From assembly GCA_017942025.1 (NCBI GenBank), contig JAGAVH010000019.1, positions 1-57,308 of the forward strand: DNA of 57,308 nucleotides, written 5' to 3'. Shown here piece by piece: positions 45,678-55,812 of this stretch. The position numbers were made by a program, and so were the translations under genes. The notes beneath the pieces are model-generated. The model saw only the letters and a program-made list of their open reading frames with translations. It did not search any database and had not been told where the DNA came from. Position 1 is the stretch's first letter. The number at the start of each line of letters is the position of its first letter. Source of the stretch: Ruminiclostridium sp. Its GTDB lineage: Bacteria > Bacillota > Clostridia > Oscillospirales > Ruminococcaceae.

Positions 45678-46715
45678 TTATTTCCAATTTCGGATAAATG
45701 CGGCAAGCTCACCTGCCATTTCTTCCTGCTCTGTGATACGAGGATGTCCGGGTGTAGCTGCAGCGTTTCTTAAAAATCTGTAGCGTACCACATTCTTATT
45801 GTCAAGTTCATCAGCTATTTCGTCAAGAGCGTCATCCCATGTAGCTTCATGCATAAGAACAGTAGTTATAAGGATGAATCTGGTTTTATCACCATACTTT
45901 TCTATAAGTGAATTTACCATATTTTTATATGTAGTCTTCCAGTATTCTCTGTAGTCCTTTTCATAAATACGCTGAGGAGCAGGATGCGCATCATTCTGAC
46001 CGAGTGCGATGATTACATAGTCGGGAGTATAACGACTGAAATCCCACTCTGTTATCCCCATTTCGGGAACATAGGACATCTGCTTGTAAACAGTTTCCAT
46101 ACCGATATAGGAATCGGGGTTGAAATAACCTGCGCCATCAACCATAGAAATGCCGCCCTGGGCGTTGCAATGTATTTCAGCATTAAGCTTTCTGGCAAGT
46201 GATAAGGAATAGGAAAACCAACTGTTATCATAACAGGAATTATGGGAGGGATCGCAGTGTCCGTCGTAATATACCGCTTCGACCACCTCTCCTGCGGAAA
46301 CGCTGTCGCCGTATATCTCAAGCTTCATATCATATTTATGCTCATTTGCCATTACCTCAGCATTTTCATCAACCATAAGTCCGCAGAAACGGAAGTAATG
46401 ATGCGATCCTGCTGTACGCTTGAAAATAGTTATGGTATGCTCCCCTTCAGGAAGATTGTCTGCTATAGGTATATAAACAGGTACATCTGATTTGTTGAGG
46501 TCAAATTTGTACTGAATGCCATCAACAACCGCACCGATCCATGTAACAGGATATATCAGCATAGGCTGTATCATCATACCTACAGATGTTCCGGTAAACC
46601 TTGCGCTCACCATACTGCCGGCGTAGATAAATAAAGGACGTTCTTTTTCGGAAAAGTCTATTCTTCCCATATAAGAAAAGACATCTGAAGGGGTTATAAG
46701 CTTTTTGTTAAGCAT
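45678..46715 (-). CDS. SGNH/GDSL hydrolase, CE2-like carbohydrate esterase (cytoplasmic)
   Basis: The 345-residue protein has a jelly-roll-like N-terminal domain (1-125: SARFTGTSVGMMIQ, YIPIADNLPEGEHTITIFKRT) followed by an SGNH domain: IYGDSVSAGEVVEA (nucleophile Ser near 138), NAQGGI (Gly), IIALGQNDAH (Asn) and AATPGHPRITEQ (catalytic His). This order is that of carbohydrate esterase family 2, which removes acetyl groups from xylan or other glycans. No signal peptide, so it should work on imported sugars. The ATG at 46715 has a GAAAGGA RBS. Confidence 0.82.
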   Translation of the reverse strand: MLNKKLITPSDVFSYMGRIDFSEKERPLFIYAGSMVSARFTGTSVGMMIQPMLIYPVTWIGAVVDGIQYKFDLNKSDVPVYIPIADNLPEGEHTITIFKRTAGSHHYFRFCGLMVDENAEVMANEHKYDMKLEIYGDSVSAGEVVEAVYYDGHCDPSHNSCYDNSWFSYSLSLARKLNAEIHCNAQGGISMVDGAGYFNPDSYIGMETVYKQMSYVPEMGITEWDFSRYTPDYVIIALGQNDAHPAPQRIYEKDYREYWKTTYKNMVNSLIEKYGDKTRFILITTVLMHEATWDDALDEIADELDNKNVVRYRFLRNAAATPGHPRITEQEEMAGELAAFIRNWK

Positions 46716-46756
46716 AGTAAAATTTCCTTTCGATAAAGTATTTGTATGCACTATAT

Positions 46757-46785
46757 ATTGTAACATATGTAATCGTTTTTTTCAA
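46757..46785 (-). promoter_or_regulatory. Promoter of the CE2-like esterase gene
   Basis: On the minus strand TTGAAA (46780-46785), 17 bp, TACAAT (46757-46762). Confidence 0.65.
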
Positions 46786-46852: not shown

Positions 46853-46931
46853 TAGCTTGTAGTCAAGAAAATTAAAGTAAACTCTGAATTTTCTTAAAGT
46901 GTTAATCAAAATACGGAAAGGACATATTTGT

Positions 46932-48431
46932 ATGAAGAAAAAATTATTTGCTCTTATTCTTGCAGTATGTGTAACAATGAGTGTTACCGCCTGCAACAAT
47001 CAGACCACTTCTTCTGCTGTTACATCCGGTACAAGCTCTACCGAAAGCAAAGAAGACTCCAAAGCCGAATCCAGCACCGAAAGCAAAGAAGAATCAAAAG
47101 ACGAATCCGAAGCTGAAAGCAAGGAAGAAGCTTCCGCACCTGAAACATCAGACACCACAACTTCTTCTCCCGAGACATCTGATACAGCGACTTCTGCTCC
47201 CGAGACATCTGATACAGCGACTTCTGCTCCCGAGACATCTGATACAGCGACTTCTGCTCCTGAAACAACAACAGAAGATAACACTTCAGATGCTCCCACA
47301 GTAGAAACATATAAAGCAGGCGGACTGATAACCGAAGAAATGAAAGAAATCTCGGTACTCCACGAAGGTAACAGAGTAAGACTTGCAGGCTTCTTAAAGA
47401 AGATTGCTGCAGGCGAAGAGGTTACAGTAGGCTTTATCGGCGGTTCTATTACTCAGGGCACAAGCGCAGGCAACAATCTTTGCTATGCAAAGCTTACAGC
47501 CGATTGGATTCAGGACACATATCCCAACGCCAAGGTAAACTATGTAAACGCAGGTATCGGTGCTACAGGCTCATACATCGGCGTACACAGAGTTACAAAC
47601 GATCTTCTTTCAAAGAAGCCTGACCTTGTATTCGTTGAATTCTCGGTCAACGATACAACCGAACACACACAGCGCAACATTGAATCCTACGACAGCCTTT
47701 TAAGAACTATCTGGAATTATGAAACAGCTCCTGCTGTTATCACAATAGCGACTGTTCAGGAAAACGGCACAAGCTTCCAGCAGTATCACTACGATATCAT
47801 AAAGAAATATGATCTTCCTATGATTTCCTACGGCGACGCTATTCTTTCTGTTATAAAGAAGGGTGACATTGCATGGAAGGAAATTTCCGACGATAACATT
47901 CATCCCAATGTTCCCGGACACAATGCATTATCACAGATGCTTACAGCATATCTCAGCGATGCAATCGCAGACCTTGACAGCATCACAGGTGCAGAAAGTG
48001 ACTTTACGGTAAAGGCATCTCAGGCAGGTTTTGAAAACGGTACACTTTTAACTCCCATCAATTCACAGCCCACAGTAAGCGGCTTCATAAAGAAAAACGG
48101 TTACTTCGGTGGCTTTGATGGAACATGGATTGCTTTAGCAGCCGCAAAGCCTTACCCCGATGATGTAGGCCTCACCTTTGAAGTAGAAGCAAAGAGCATC
48201 GGTCTTCTTTACGGAAAACTCACAAACAGCACAGCAACAAAAGCTGATATTTACGTTGACGGCGAGCTTGTAACTACTATCGACGCTGCTTTCCCCGGCG
48301 GTTGGGGCAACTACGTTGAATGTGCACATATCAAATCATTCAATGAAACCGGCAAGCACACTGTAAAAATCGTTCCTAAAACAAGAGAAGGCGGCTCAGT
48401 CTTCTATGTAAGTGCTTTAGCTATTTCCTAA
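46932..48431 (+). CDS. Secreted SGNH/GDSL esterase lipoprotein with repetitive Ser/Thr/Glu linker
   Basis: The 499-residue protein has a lipoprotein signal (lipobox SVTAC), then a linker of about 110 residues with Ser/Glu/Lys runs and a tandem TSDTATSAPE-type repeat. The SGNH domain (about 150-345) shows VGFIGGSITQGTSAG (Ser), GATGSYIG, VEFSVNDT (Asn) and DDNIHPNVPGH (Asp-x-x-His). A beta-rich C-terminal domain follows. It should act as a surface esterase, probably deacetylating plant polysaccharide. The ATG at 46932 has GGAAAGGA upstream. Confidence 0.85.
   Translation: MKKKLFALILAVCVTMSVTACNNQTTSSAVTSGTSSTESKEDSKAESSTESKEESKDESEAESKEEASAPETSDTTTSSPETSDTATSAPETSDTATSAPETSDTATSAPETTTEDNTSDAPTVETYKAGGLITEEMKEISVLHEGNRVRLAGFLKKIAAGEEVTVGFIGGSITQGTSAGNNLCYAKLTADWIQDTYPNAKVNYVNAGIGATGSYIGVHRVTNDLLSKKPDLVFVEFSVNDTTEHTQRNIESYDSLLRTIWNYETAPAVITIATVQENGTSFQQYHYDIIKKYDLPMISYGDAILSVIKKGDIAWKEISDDNIHPNVPGHNALSQMLTAYLSDAIADLDSITGAESDFTVKASQAGFENGTLLTPINSQPTVSGFIKKNGYFGGFDGTWIALAAAKPYPDDVGLTFEVEAKSIGLLYGKLTNSTATKADIYVDGELVTTIDAAFPGGWGNYVECAHIKSFNETGKHTVKIVPKTREGGSVFYVSALAIS
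47129..47261 (+). repeat. 30-bp tandem repeats encoding a TSDTATSAPE linker
   Basis: Several consecutive 30-bp units coding for TSDTATSAPE-like decapeptides (three nearly identical, one diverged TSDTTTSSPE copy before them). In-frame units make copy number free to vary without breaking the gene. Confidence 0.85.
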
Positions 48432-51741: not shown

Positions 51742-51770
51742 TTGACATTATTCTTATTATATAGTAAAAT
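51742..51770 (+). promoter_or_regulatory. Promoter of the GTPase-NYN gene
   Basis: TTGACA (51742-51747), 17 bp, TAAAAT (51765-51770), 32 bp before the start; the leader is too short for the leader-peptide attenuation known for tet(M). Confidence 0.8.
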
Positions 51771-51801
51771 AAGAGAAAGATAAACGAAAGGAGGTAGCAG
51801 T

Positions 51802-54363
51802 ATGAAAAGACTCGGAATAGGGATAATGGCTCATGTTGACGCAGGAAAGACTACCCTCACAGAGGCTATGATGTATCTTACAGGAAACATCAGAAAGCTT
51901 GGCAGAGTTGATCACGGCGACGCTTTTCTTGATACGCACATCTTAGAAAAAAGTCGTGGCATAACCATATTTTCAAAGCAGGCGGTTATGAATACAGACG
52001 ACGCCGAAATAACACTGCTTGATACTCCCGGACACACCGATTTTTCTTCTGAGGCTGAAAGAGCCCTACAGATAATGGACTATGCCGTGCTTATCATAAG
52101 CGGTACAGACGGCGTACAGAACCATACCGAAACTCTCTGGCATTTACTAAAAAGCTATCGCGTGCCTACCTTTATATTTGTAAATAAAATGGATATATCC
52201 GAATTATCGAAAAATCTCATTATGGCAGAGCTTGTAAGAAGGCTTGATAATTCCTGCGTTGATTTTTCAGGAGTTATCAAAAACGGAATAGACGAAGATA
52301 CCGCCGAAGCTATCGCCTTATGTGACGAAGCAATTATGAACGAGCTGCTCGAAAGAGGAGAAATAAGTACGGATATAATCTCGAATAAGATAAAGCAGAG
52401 AAAAATATTCCCCTGCTTTTTCGGTTCTGCGCTGAAGCTTAACGGCGTAGAAGAATTTATAAAGCTTCTTTCAGAATACACCCTACAGCCAAAATATAAC
52501 GACGAATTCTCCGCTACTGTATATAAAATAAGCGAGGACGAACATGGTAACAGACTTACACATTTAAAAGTAACGGGCGGCACACTTAAAGTAAAGAGTA
52601 TAATTGAAAAGGGTGACAACCTTGAAAAGATAAACAGCATCAGAATATATTCAGGCGGTAAATTCAGAACGGTTGACGAAGCACCTGCAGGTACGGTATG
52701 TGCAGTCACAGGACTGTCAGACACTTACAGCGGCCAGGGACTCGGCATATCAGCAGACGCTCCCCTGCCCCTGCTGGAGCCATTATTCAACTACAGAATA
52801 ATATTACCCTCCCACATAGACGTATATAACGGATTAAATATACTGAGAAAACTTGAACAAGAGGACCCTACCCTCCGCATTGTATGGAACGAGCAGTTAA
52901 AGGAGATACACCTGCAGCTGATGGGAGAAATCCAGCTTGAAATACTGAAAAGCGTGATCCACGACCGCTTCGGCTTTGATGTGGAATTTTCCGAAGGAAG
53001 CATTTCCTATAAGGAAACGATAGAATCGGCAGTTTATGGCATAGGACACTACGAACCGTTGCGGCACTATGCAGAGGTAAGACTTTTACTTGAGCCGGCC
53101 GAGGAAGGCTTGGGACTGAGGTTTGTCAGCGAATGCAGAGAGGACAAGCTGGACAAGAACTGGCAGAGGCTGATTCTCACTCATCTTAATGAGAAAAAGC
53201 ATTTAGGCGTGCTTACCGGCTCGCCTATAACAGATATGAAAATCACTCTCGTTTCGGGAAGAGCACATCTTAAGCATACCGAGGGCGGAGATTTCAGACA
53301 GGCCACCTACAGAGCGGTAAGGCAGGGACTTATGAGTGCTAAAAGCATACTGCTGGAGCCTTATTACAGCTTTACTCTTACCGTACCTTCAGACTGTGTG
53401 GGAAGAGCTATGACGGATCTGCAGATGAAAAATGCTGAATTCTCTTCGCCTGAAACGGCAGGCGAAAACGAAATGCTGATAAAGGGTACGGCACCCGCAT
53501 CAAAGCTACGGGGCTATCAATCGGTGATAAGCTCGTATACGGGCGGCAAGGGCAGACTTATCTGCATACCTGACGGCTACAGACCGTGTACCGACAGCGA
53601 AAACGTTATAAAGGAAATCGGATATAATCCCGAAAGCGATCTTGATAATCCTGCAGACTCGGTATTCTGCTCTCACGGTGCAGGCTTTAACGTAAGCTGG
53701 GAGCAGGTTCCGTCTTATGCTCACACCATAGCGGAAAACGAGAAAAGCGAGGATACTGAAGCACAGACAAGACCTGTAAATCAGTACAAGGCAAAGCAGG
53801 CCTCCGACAAGGAGCTTATGGAGATATTTGAGCGTACTTACGGCAAGATAAACCGTGATGAAAGAAGTGCTATGCGGAGACTTCCCGAAAAGAAGGACAA
53901 GCCGTATAAGGCAAAGGAACGTCCGAAGGGGCCGCTTTATCTTCTGGTTGACGGATATAATATAATCTTTGCCTGGGAAGAACTTAACAAAATAGCACAG
54001 CAGAATCTCGATCTTGCAAGAAGCGAGCTTATAAATATATTATGTAACTATCAGGGATATAACCGCTGTGAAGTTATCGTGGTATTTGACGCATATAAGG
54101 TCAAGGGCAACAAGGGCGAGGTTGAGCGTCACGGAGGAATTACCGCAGTATATACAAAGGAAGCGGAAACCGCTGATATGTATATTGAAAAAGCCACCAG
54201 AATGCTCGGTAAGAAGCACAGAGTAAGAGTTGCTACCTCCGACAGACTGGAACAGCTTATCATCTTTGGTGCAGACGCCGAAAGAGTATCGGCAAGTGAG
54301 CTTTATGCGGAGGTCAAATATACAGAAAAACAGATACAGGCATTTTTAGACAACCAGACGTAA
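51802..54363 (+). CDS. Tet(M)-like ribosomal translation GTPase fused to a YacP/Rae1-type NYN ribonuclease domain
   Basis: The 853-residue protein starts as a ribosomal-protection/EF-G-like GTPase: G1 AHVDAGKTT (10-18), G2 RGITI (52-56), G3 DTPGH (74-78), G4 NKMD (128-131), GSA near 210, then EF-G-like domains II-V to about 640. After a charged linker (about 650-710, KDKPYKAKERPKGP) comes an NYN domain (712-850): LYLLVDGYNIIFAW (Asp717), VVFDAYKVKG, TKEAETADMYIEKA, RVATSDRLEQLIIFGAD and VSASEL. YacP/Rae1 of Bacillus cuts mRNA in the ribosomal A site, so this fusion would bring a ribosome-binding GTPase and an A-site nuclease together. RBS AAGGAGG. Confidence 0.9.
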   Translation: MKRLGIGIMAHVDAGKTTLTEAMMYLTGNIRKLGRVDHGDAFLDTHILEKSRGITIFSKQAVMNTDDAEITLLDTPGHTDFSSEAERALQIMDYAVLIISGTDGVQNHTETLWHLLKSYRVPTFIFVNKMDISELSKNLIMAELVRRLDNSCVDFSGVIKNGIDEDTAEAIALCDEAIMNELLERGEISTDIISNKIKQRKIFPCFFGSALKLNGVEEFIKLLSEYTLQPKYNDEFSATVYKISEDEHGNRLTHLKVTGGTLKVKSIIEKGDNLEKINSIRIYSGGKFRTVDEAPAGTVCAVTGLSDTYSGQGLGISADAPLPLLEPLFNYRIILPSHIDVYNGLNILRKLEQEDPTLRIVWNEQLKEIHLQLMGEIQLEILKSVIHDRFGFDVEFSEGSISYKETIESAVYGIGHYEPLRHYAEVRLLLEPAEEGLGLRFVSECREDKLDKNWQRLILTHLNEKKHLGVLTGSPITDMKITLVSGRAHLKHTEGGDFRQATYRAVRQGLMSAKSILLEPYYSFTLTVPSDCVGRAMTDLQMKNAEFSSPETAGENEMLIKGTAPASKLRGYQSVISSYTGGKGRLICIPDGYRPCTDSENVIKEIGYNPESDLDNPADSVFCSHGAGFNVSWEQVPSYAHTIAENEKSEDTEAQTRPVNQYKAKQASDKELMEIFERTYGKINRDERSAMRRLPEKKDKPYKAKERPKGPLYLLVDGYNIIFAWEELNKIAQQNLDLARSELINILCNYQGYNRCEVIVVFDAYKVKGNKGEVERHGGITAVYTKEAETADMYIEKATRMLGKKHRVRVATSDRLEQLIIFGADAERVSASELYAEVKYTEKQIQAFLDNQT

Positions 54364-54368
54364 GATAG

Positions 54369-54397
54369 AAGGCAGTCGGATTTCCGACTGCCTTTTT
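54369..54397 (+). terminator. Terminator after the GTPase-NYN gene
   Basis: AAGGCAGTCGGA and TCCGACTGCCTT form a 12-bp stem with a 2-nt centre, followed by TTTTTT. A close relative (GCAGTCGGA stem) follows the next gene at 55819. Confidence 0.9.
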
Positions 54398-54507: not shown

Positions 54508-55812
54508 ATGAGCAGAAAATTCAGATCGATTATCGCTGTATTTTCAGCGATGGCTGTTATGTTTACTGCAGGCTGTCAGGATACGACAACAAGCAGTAGT
54601 GCATCTTCAAATGAAAGCAGTGTCACAGAGCAGACTGAAGAAAGCAAACAGGAAACTTCCTCGGAAGCTACTACAGAAAGCTCTGCACCAGAAACTGAAA
54701 AGCCCGAAGAAAACAAACCTCAGCACGTTACAGATGAATATCTGTCCAATACTTTTATTGCAACAGGTAACAATTTTATCGTACAGTCAGCGGAAAATAT
54801 CACCTACAGAGCATATTTCCCCGTTGAAGAATACGGCAAGCTCGAATATTGCTTCTATTTTTCAAACACAGTTGATTCCACATATTCAAGAGGCACTAAA
54901 GCGTATGTAGGAAAACCCGGCGGCAATTACACAATAAGCAACGCTGTTATCGCTGACGGAGGCACAGGTCCAGATGACGAAATCACAAACCGCACCCCTG
55001 TGACCTTCGGCGGTAAGGACAGCAAGGAAGTAGCTCCCGACGAAGCTTATTGGAGTGACCCTGTAGAAATGGATATTCCTGAAGGACATTATCTTGTATG
55101 GGAGTGGACAATAAACGGCACGGATATTCCCTGTATTGCAATGTCTTCGCTGACCTCTACCACTTCTTCAACCGATGGTAAGAGCTTCAGCTACTGTGAT
55201 AACATTCCCCTGCCCCAGATAATCGGTGCAAAGCGTGATGTAAAGCATACGGTGTGCGCTATTGGTGACTCCATAACCCAGGGCTGTCAGACGGAATTTA
55301 TGAAGTACGAGTTCTGGGCGGCACAGCTTGCACAGAAAATTGGAGATGACGTTAGCTTCTATAACGCAGGTCTCGGCTGGGCAAGAGCAAGCGACGCTTC
55401 TAAGTGCGGCAACTGGCTTGAAAGAGCAAAGAAGTATGAAACGGTACTTATCGCCTTTGGCACAAACGATATAGGCTCGGGAGAATATAACGGCAAAAAG
55501 AACACTGCCGAAGAAATCAAGGTATTTCTTGAGGTTCTGATTGACGAACTTAAAGAGGCTGGTTGTAACGTAATCCTCTTCAACTCTCCACCACAGGGCT
55601 ACAGCGGCAAAAACGAAAACACAAGAACTGAGCTCAACACAATTATTCCGGCACTTGCAGAGGAAAAAGGAATAGAATTCTTTGATTTTGCAGGGCTTTT
55701 ATGCGACGAATCAGATCCTGCAACTCCTCTCTACGGTGGTCATCCCAACGGTGTGGCAGGTGGAATAGTTTCCGATAAGCTTATAGAACAGTTTGCTGAT
55801 TTGCTGAAATAA
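54508..55812 (+). CDS. Secreted SGNH/GDSL hydrolase lipoprotein
   Basis: The 434-residue protein has a lipoprotein signal (MAVMFTAGC), a Ser/Thr/Glu linker (about 24-72), a beta-sandwich domain (about 75-230) and an SGNH domain: VCAIGDSITQGCQ (Ser), NAGLGWARA, IAFGTNDIGSG (Asn) and GGHPNGVAGG (His). It belongs to the GDSL lipase/acylhydrolase class and probably acts on acylated glycans outside the cell. The linker is shorter and less regular than that of the lipoprotein at 46932. RBS GAAAGGGAA; a TATAAT lies about 40 bp upstream. Confidence 0.85.
   Translation: MSRKFRSIIAVFSAMAVMFTAGCQDTTTSSSASSNESSVTEQTEESKQETSSEATTESSAPETEKPEENKPQHVTDEYLSNTFIATGNNFIVQSAENITYRAYFPVEEYGKLEYCFYFSNTVDSTYSRGTKAYVGKPGGNYTISNAVIADGGTGPDDEITNRTPVTFGGKDSKEVAPDEAYWSDPVEMDIPEGHYLVWEWTINGTDIPCIAMSSLTSTTSSTDGKSFSYCDNIPLPQIIGAKRDVKHTVCAIGDSITQGCQTEFMKYEFWAAQLAQKIGDDVSFYNAGLGWARASDASKCGNWLERAKKYETVLIAFGTNDIGSGEYNGKKNTAEEIKVFLEVLIDELKEAGCNVILFNSPPQGYSGKNENTRTELNTIIPALAEEKGIEFFDFAGLLCDESDPATPLYGGHPNGVAGGIVSDKLIEQFADLLK

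Follow-up and report, generated by a model that had tools for sequence, protein, structure and literature searches.

Two kinds of protein are the closest described relatives of the gene analyzed here. Ribosomal-protection proteins such as Tet(M), Tet(O), Tet(W), and TetB(P) have the five-domain layout of elongation factor G (EF-G), and the SPV or SPA tip of their loop III, with Pro509, overlaps the drug site (PMC7456112). Rae1 (YacP) of Bacillus subtilis (PDB 5mq8 and 5mq9) is a stand-alone nuclease of approximately 170 amino acids in the NYN_YacP fold family, usually encoded between rlmB and sigH; current descriptions make it an mRNA endonuclease that depends on translation (PMC12320835). Margus 2007 counted Tet genes in 20 genomes (PMC1780047), and Atkinson 2015 reported a Tet-NYN fusion in ten clostridial species and suggested RNase-based resistance (PMC4342817). 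The gene studied here lies in a 57,308-nucleotide contig of Ruminiclostridium sp. (GCA_017942025.1, JAGAVH010000019.1), hereafter called the window. It shares the architecture of the fusions of Atkinson 2015, in which a Tet/EF-G GTPase precedes a YacP-like NYN domain, and likewise comes from a clostridial host; the fusion architecture is therefore not new, having been published in 2015. The extracts of that paper that were consulted give no rae1 replacement, tip loop, tether motif, or class-wide count. We found no experimental study of the fusion in the literature searched, which did not contain the key Rae1 papers, and we do not claim that replacement of rae1 is unreported.

We consider it probable, with real room for doubt, that the fused protein serves as Rae1 in this lineage, with a translational GTPase of its own as carrier. 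Because the separate enzyme is missing or decaying in related bacteria, its job probably falls to the fused protein. A first-pass annotation of the window had proposed a single machine that cuts mRNA on ribosomes; replacement of the stand-alone gene fits that proposal, and the cutting itself is predicted from sequence. A lineage-wide combination of Rae1 with an EF-G-type GTPase, with a decaying free rae1, points to a translational GTPase as a possible means of delivering or timing mRNA cutting on the ribosome. The fusion would be a simple system for testing GTPase-delivered cutting and bears on how Rae1 picks ribosomes.

Distribution of the fusion and fate of stand-alone rae1

We surveyed 293 genomes of the class and found a NYN_YacP match over the curated cut-off in 191 of them and none over it in 102. 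The GTPase subfamily was present in 122 genomes and the fusion in 104, spanning 24 family groups; 87 genomes had a separate YacP only. In 99 of the 104 fused genomes the frame is at least 780 amino acids long, and five were counted even though the frame is broken or cut by contig ends. Frames were inspected in 59 of the 87 stand-alone genomes (168 to 216 amino acids) and not in 28. Most genomes with the fusion have one copy. In the single-contig genome G228, the GTPase frame (L089, 5541-8255) is broken by one TAG, and at L193 (21-2426) the GTPase and NYN parts occupy two neighboring frames, either a broken frame or a split gene. Titled relatives among the best 80 listed include Ruminococcus flavefaciens, Intestinimonas butyriciproducens, Pseudoflavonifractor phocaeensis, and many assemblies of gut or rumen Clostridia. 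In a sample of the phylum, the GTPase subfamily was detected at E 1e-150 in 21 of 299 genomes. Within the window's genus, 17 of 18 YacP matches lie in frames of 850 to 1229 amino acids, and the other (477 amino acids) is on a short contig. Given that YacP was found in only 14 of 25 genomes of this genus, the fused gene is widespread but dispensable.

The fusion and the stand-alone gene rarely occur together. A stand-alone YacP is present in 1 of the 104 fused genomes (G322) versus 87 of the 189 others (Fisher P = 1e-19, ignoring kinship). These figures correct a raw count of a second YacP in 4 of 103 fused genomes versus 89 of 190 others: three second matches were below the cut-off, the gene in G223 is a cut fusion, and the match in G299 is below the cut-off. 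Within one genus, 7 of 11 genomes have the fusion, 4 have the stand-alone gene directly before sigH, and none has both.

The place of the stand-alone gene is conserved, with SigH downstream at 24 of 25 loci and RlmB upstream at 20 of 25; both names were verified on two loci, over the NCBIfam cut-offs. The gene preceding rlmB carries an RNase III domain and is presumably mrnC. The Rae1-type gene in the window is fused and lies outside the rlmB-sigH row, and sigH itself was not found at E 1e-25 in the three genomes of the window's genus examined, the window's own (G000) included. We inspected the sigH place in 19 fused genomes (12 examined less three without sigH, plus the 10 fused genomes of 14). 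An intact rae1 beside sigH is missing in 18 of them, the exception being G322. Sixteen retain the rlmB-sigH row without an intact rae1, and in G205 and G173 rlmB does not adjoin sigH.

Remnants resembling rae1 were detected on the coding strand in 5 of the 16 gaps between rlmB and sigH, four of them clear and one borderline. The remnant in G062 (E 1e-23) comprises 88 and 46 residues in two frames, and those in G136, G624, and G627 have E values of 3e-9, 2e-8, and 9e-7, respectively. We treat the weakest remnant (G114, locus L262, E 3e-5) as borderline because fused-type queries gave wrong-strand chance matches down to E 1e-4 in one gap. All five remnants score better with stand-alone than with fused queries, and the best match among 80 shuffled gaps had an E value of 0.07. 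Since most of these genomes were picked from two family groups, the figure of 5 in 16 should not be read as a class-wide rate. Because G322, of the same genus as G627, has an intact gene, either decay occurred more than once or G322 regained rae1. Decay of the housekeeping gene rae1 in genomes with the fusion is most simply explained if the fusion took over the work of the stand-alone gene. In G229, the fused gene lies approximately 3.5 kb downstream of sigH, near the ancestral place of rae1 (L230, 2780-5428 and 8912-9556); this placement forms no pattern.

A 2006 proposal for NYN_YacP, quoted in PMC4342817, would give the fused protein a ribosome-targeted role in the maturation of rRNA or tRNA. 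The location of stand-alone yacP between rlmB and sigH, near an RNase III-domain gene, is in keeping with that proposal, which we nevertheless regard as quite improbable given the present description of Rae1 as an mRNA endonuclease and the 102 genomes with no YacP over the cut-off.

Conservation of the nuclease and GTPase halves

For residue-level comparisons, we collected 161 frames with both parts and removed incomplete and duplicate sequences, leaving 129 distinct complete proteins, the window's included. The first-pass annotation had read one continuous frame joining a ribosomal-protection-type GTPase, with all G motifs, to a complete NYN domain, and had named a frameshift between the halves or loss of the metal-binding acids as grounds for doubting a working fusion. 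The frame holds, with 853 amino acids, no internal stop, and Pfam domains in both halves (Table 1). Because the 129 complete homologues come from separate assemblies, the fusion is not an assembly artifact, and a frameshift was likewise ruled out.

The NYN_YacP match scores 164.2 bits against a curated cut-off of 24.6, and B. subtilis YacP (5mq8, 5mq9) matches residues 714 to 847 with an E value of about 2e-23. The motifs DGYNIIFAW, FDAYK, ATSDRLEQ, and SASEL named in the first-pass annotation are all present in frame. Its description of the domain as complete stands for the core and the four Asp residues, which align with D7, D53, D81, and D104 of Rae1, and not for the C terminus: the profile match stops at position 138 of 166, so the tail, longer in stand-alone Rae1, is shortened in the window protein. 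Fused proteins of other families match the profile to positions 163 to 166. Each of the four acids is kept in 128 or 129 of the 129 fused proteins, and they belong to 26 NYN positions with an identity of 90% or more in the fused set as well as in 25 stand-alone rows. D7 and D81 are reported to be the residues mutated in Rae1.

Five Pfam domains cover the GTPase half, and K16, D74, H78, N128, K129, and D131 are kept in all 129 fused proteins and T17 in 128. The exceptions recorded in the set are L173 (D814Y), L191 (T17M), and L086 (H489S). Comparison of the first part with ribosomal-protection proteins gave a PDB match to TetO over residues 1 to 596 (E 7e-70) and an alignment with TetM (3j9y) over 609 residues. 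The EF-G model TIGR00484 is not reached (279 of 659 bits), and the window's genome has a separate EF-G frame elsewhere (G000:C64), truncated at a contig end. Unfused relatives of the GTPase end 2 to 13 residues past the last conserved His motif, just after the C-terminal extension.

The domain IV tip and the question of tetracycline resistance

At the tip of domain IV, the loop has the sequence GRAHxKHTEGGDFR, and H492, T493, G495, G496, D497, and F498 are invariant in the 129 fused proteins. Twenty-two unfused relatives share the HTEGG tip, with F498 replaced by Leu in one of them. The corresponding tips are YSPVSTPADF in TetO and TetW, FSPASTPADF in TetB(P), and SYHEVDSSEMAF in EF-G, whose histidine aligns with H489 of the fused protein. 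Unfused GTPases of this HTEGG type, found in Ligilactobacillus salivarius (pMP118), Paenibacillus, and many Clostridia, belong to the same GTPase subfamily but lack the tether and the NYN domain; the GTPase part of the fused protein is 43 to 49% identical to three of them. Its identity is 33% to TetB(P), 26 to 28% to TetO and TetW, and 26% to EF-G. A quick 53-row tree sets the 49 HTEGG rows apart from TetO, TetW, and TetB(P) with an SH-aLRT of 95, a value to be read with a long-branch warning and with only three Tet rows in the tree. The fused rows of the same tree group together (92), with L. salivarius pMP118 nested inside and the fused row L070 unplaced.

These comparisons bear directly on the suggestion of Atkinson 2015, in which the GTPase would expel tetracycline and the nuclease would add to resistance. 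The five-domain layout and G motifs are shared with the Tet proteins, the TetO and TetM matches are extensive, and loop III has 13 residues, as in TetO, TetW, and TetB(P). Published mutants indicate that altered Tet loop residues can be tolerated (PMC4750697), and Tet(M) is reported to stay active after a triple change of S508, P509, and V510. Because of that mutant and the equal loop length, drug displacement by the GTPase half would be compatible with the sequence, although less likely. NCBI also names some copies Tet. However, the SPVS or SPAS tip of the Tet proteins, which have no NYN domain, is replaced by an invariant HTEGG. The protein misses the NCBIfam cut-offs (tet_protect, 400 of 775 bits; Tet(M), 215 of 1420 bits), its identity to TetO and TetW is hardly above that to EF-G, and the gene is present in approximately one-third of the class sample with no conserved neighbor. 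Overall, we consider resistance unlikely as the role of the fusion, in line with the earlier hunch that this is perhaps not an antibiotic resistance gene.

Annotation as a tetracycline resistance protein, which the first-pass annotation had described as frequent, does occur: the fused copy of Agathobacter rectalis and the unfused relative of L. salivarius both carry a Tet name, and NCBI labels unfused HTEGG-type GTPases as translation factor GTPase family proteins or as members of the TetM/W/O/S family. Resistome surveys should therefore be read with care, since a common gut-clostridial gene is annotated as tetracycline resistance without the Tet tip loop and below the curated Tet cut-offs. 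The same warning extends to unfused relatives on L. salivarius megaplasmids.

Origin of the fusion and a proposed mechanism

A careful tree was built from 60 NYN rows, 34 of them fused and 26 stand-alone, and in it a branch with support of 86/64 separates the fused rows from the rest. Together with one stand-alone row, L044, they form a group with support of 100/99, opposite the remaining 25 stand-alone rows, with B. subtilis Rae1 among them (100/99). The L044 gene (1483-2004) thus encodes a stand-alone NYN domain that groups with fused ones; it lies outside the sigH row, in a genome (G247) that also encodes an unfused member of the GTPase subfamily. It may be a split-off from the fusion. On pMP118 of L. 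salivarius, an unfused HTEGG-type GTPase annotated as TetM/TetW/TetO/TetS family (L097, 5986-7920) is nested among fused rows. Because it falls inside them in the GTPase tree, L. salivarius seems, on this sequence evidence, to have lost the NYN part of the fusion.

The tether between the halves has approximately 65 residues and is of low confidence in the AlphaFold2 model except for a short helix. The strict pattern for the helix motif DKELMEIFERTYG was found in 55 of the 129 fused proteins; alignments of 39 and 56 rows contain motif columns that are fully or almost fully conserved, and on visual inspection a looser version is present in other families.

We propose that one fusion event gave this architecture, which then would have stood in for stand-alone rae1 as the latter was lost from its place beside sigH. 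The HTEGGDFR-tipped GTPase of the EF-G/Tet superfamily would bind the factor site of paused or stalled ribosomes with an open A site and insert domain IV where decoding takes place. On its flexible tether, the Rae1-type NYN domain would then cut mRNA in or near the A site, after which the cut message would decay and the ribosome could be rescued. A GTPase heading for the same ribosomal site would be a natural carrier of Rae1, and with so long a tether, domain IV and the nuclease could enter the A site alternately. The predicted properties are nuclease activity, hydrolysis of GTP, binding to the ribosome, cutting in the A site, and rescue.

More tentatively, the fused protein could be a GTP-clocked A-site nuclease, a possibility that we hold to be doubtful. 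The HTEGG GTPase would sample ribosomes, and the tethered Rae1 would cut after GTP hydrolysis where the GTPase is held long enough, that is, on ribosomes with an empty A site and stalled translation. If such GTP timing, which we infer, were true, the subfamily, at present classified with drug resistance, would instead serve translation quality control, with its unfused members acting as partners to free Rae1.

Several observations weigh against the view that the fused protein is a GTPase-carried Rae1. B. subtilis Rae1 works without a fused GTPase, and L. salivarius keeps the GTPase without the NYN domain. Domain IV and the Rae1 domain could hardly occupy the A site together, and the order of events is guesswork. 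Kinship confounds the association between fused and stand-alone forms and is ignored by the Fisher values, and the gap sample, mostly from two families, is not random. The gene is dispensable within the window's genus, and two large replicons labeled as plasmids carry it. Finally, a separate YacP is only slightly more common in genomes with an unfused GTPase (13 of 19 versus 74 of 170, P = 0.05); a functional link before fusion is therefore barely supported.

Alternatively, the fusion may serve co-expression only, with the halves acting separately on the ribosome. A long, low-confidence tether would suit this arrangement, as would the loss of NYN in L. salivarius and the fused-type NYN found alone in G247. 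We judge it rather improbable, given that the fusion is retained across 24 family groups and that the tether contains a partly conserved helix motif.

Gene context and mobility

No conserved neighbor of the fused gene was found at 119 fused loci. Complete fusions are present in 2 of the 1249 plasmid records with a match, on replicons of 251 to 518 kb labeled as plasmids, and a third record covers 82%. Among 112 phage records with a match, two cover the fusion, both of them UNVERIFIED scaffolds. Bacterial families were found in 5 of 5 neighbors tested on one scaffold (MT835514) and a family in 1 of 5 on the other. MT835514 (L225), labeled Bacteriophage sp., encodes UvrD, FeoB, a Glu/Gln-type tRNA synthetase, a sugar kinase, and a radical SAM protein, and by its gene content looks like bacterial chromosome. 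IMG/VR gave two relatives among 50 pattern matches, both only over residues 1 to 242 of a 454-residue query. A mobile or viral origin was ruled out by these plasmid, phage, and IMG/VR checks; the fusion is not a phage gene and can sit on large replicons.

The first-pass annotation had also raised a defense system. A ribosome-targeted nuclease could serve defense, and the gene is patchy within the window's genus, so we considered an antiviral or abortive-infection system that would stop translation on infection. PADLOC gave 0 families for 5 proteins at E 0.001, which, with the lack of a conserved neighbor, leaves the defense claim without support. The gene also has one copy in most genomes and replaces a housekeeping gene, and we regard an antiviral role as very improbable.

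The features of the gene are listed in Table 1. With a promoter-like site, a ribosome-binding site, and a terminator of its own, the gene in the window looks self-contained, judging by these sequence signals. Across fused loci, counts of upstream ribosome-binding and promoter sites (129 loci) and of downstream terminators (128 loci) were uninformative because open reading frame (ORF) starts had been set mechanically; a site resembling a ribosome-binding site was found in 23 of 129.

Table 1. Features of the fused gene and its flanking signals in the window
Feature	Position	Strand	Basis
Promoter-like site TTGACA-17-TAAAAT	51742..51770	+	Consensus scan, 11/12 positions; consensus match alone
Ribosome-binding site AAAGGAGG	51787..51794	+	Read in sequence
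Fused GTPase-NYN gene, 853 aa	51802..54363	+	Single ORF from ATG 51802, stop ends at 54363, no internal stop
G domain, residues 5-226 (K16, D74, H78, NKMD 128-131)	51814..52479	+	Pfam GTP_EFTU
EF-G domain 2, residues 235-308	52504..52725	+	Pfam EF-G_D2
EF-G domain III, residues 346-397	52837..52992	+	Pfam EFG_III
EF-G domain IV, residues 400-514	52999..53343	+	Pfam EFG_IV
Tip loop III of domain IV, GRAHLKHTEGGDF, residues 486-498	53257..53295	+	Alignment
EF-G domain V, residues 517-599	53350..53598	+	Pfam EFG_C
GTPase-family C-terminal extension, residues 600-641, DSVFCSHGAGF...	53599..53724	+	
Tether, residues 646-711	53737..53934	+	AlphaFold2 pLDDT <50 at 646-669 and 684-704
Short helix motif in tether, DKELMEIFERTYG, residues 669-681	53806..53844	+	Helix 669-680 in AlphaFold2 model
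NYN_YacP (Rae1-type) nuclease domain, residues 714-849	53941..54348	+	Pfam E 3.4e-48; PDB 5mq8/5mq9
Asp 717 (Rae1 D7)	53950..53952	+	Asp in 129/129 fused proteins
Asp 763 (Rae1 D53)	54088..54090	+	Asp in 129/129 fused proteins
Asp 792 (Rae1 D81)	54175..54177	+	Asp in 129/129 fused proteins
Asp 814 (Rae1 D104)	54241..54243	+	Asp in 128/129 fused proteins
Terminator-like stem-loop with T tail	54367..54396	+	Scan, 13 pairs

Rfam gave 0 matches in the window. Five window neighbors were tested, comprising a dCache/GGDEF/EAL protein, a GDSL esterase, and a glutamate dehydrogenase, together with two proteins that match no Pfam family; no resistance or mobile gene was found among them, in agreement with the first-pass annotation. 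Three GDSL/CE2-type esterases flank the gene (window positions 45678-46766, 46899-48431, and 54508-55812), as in a polysaccharide degrader.

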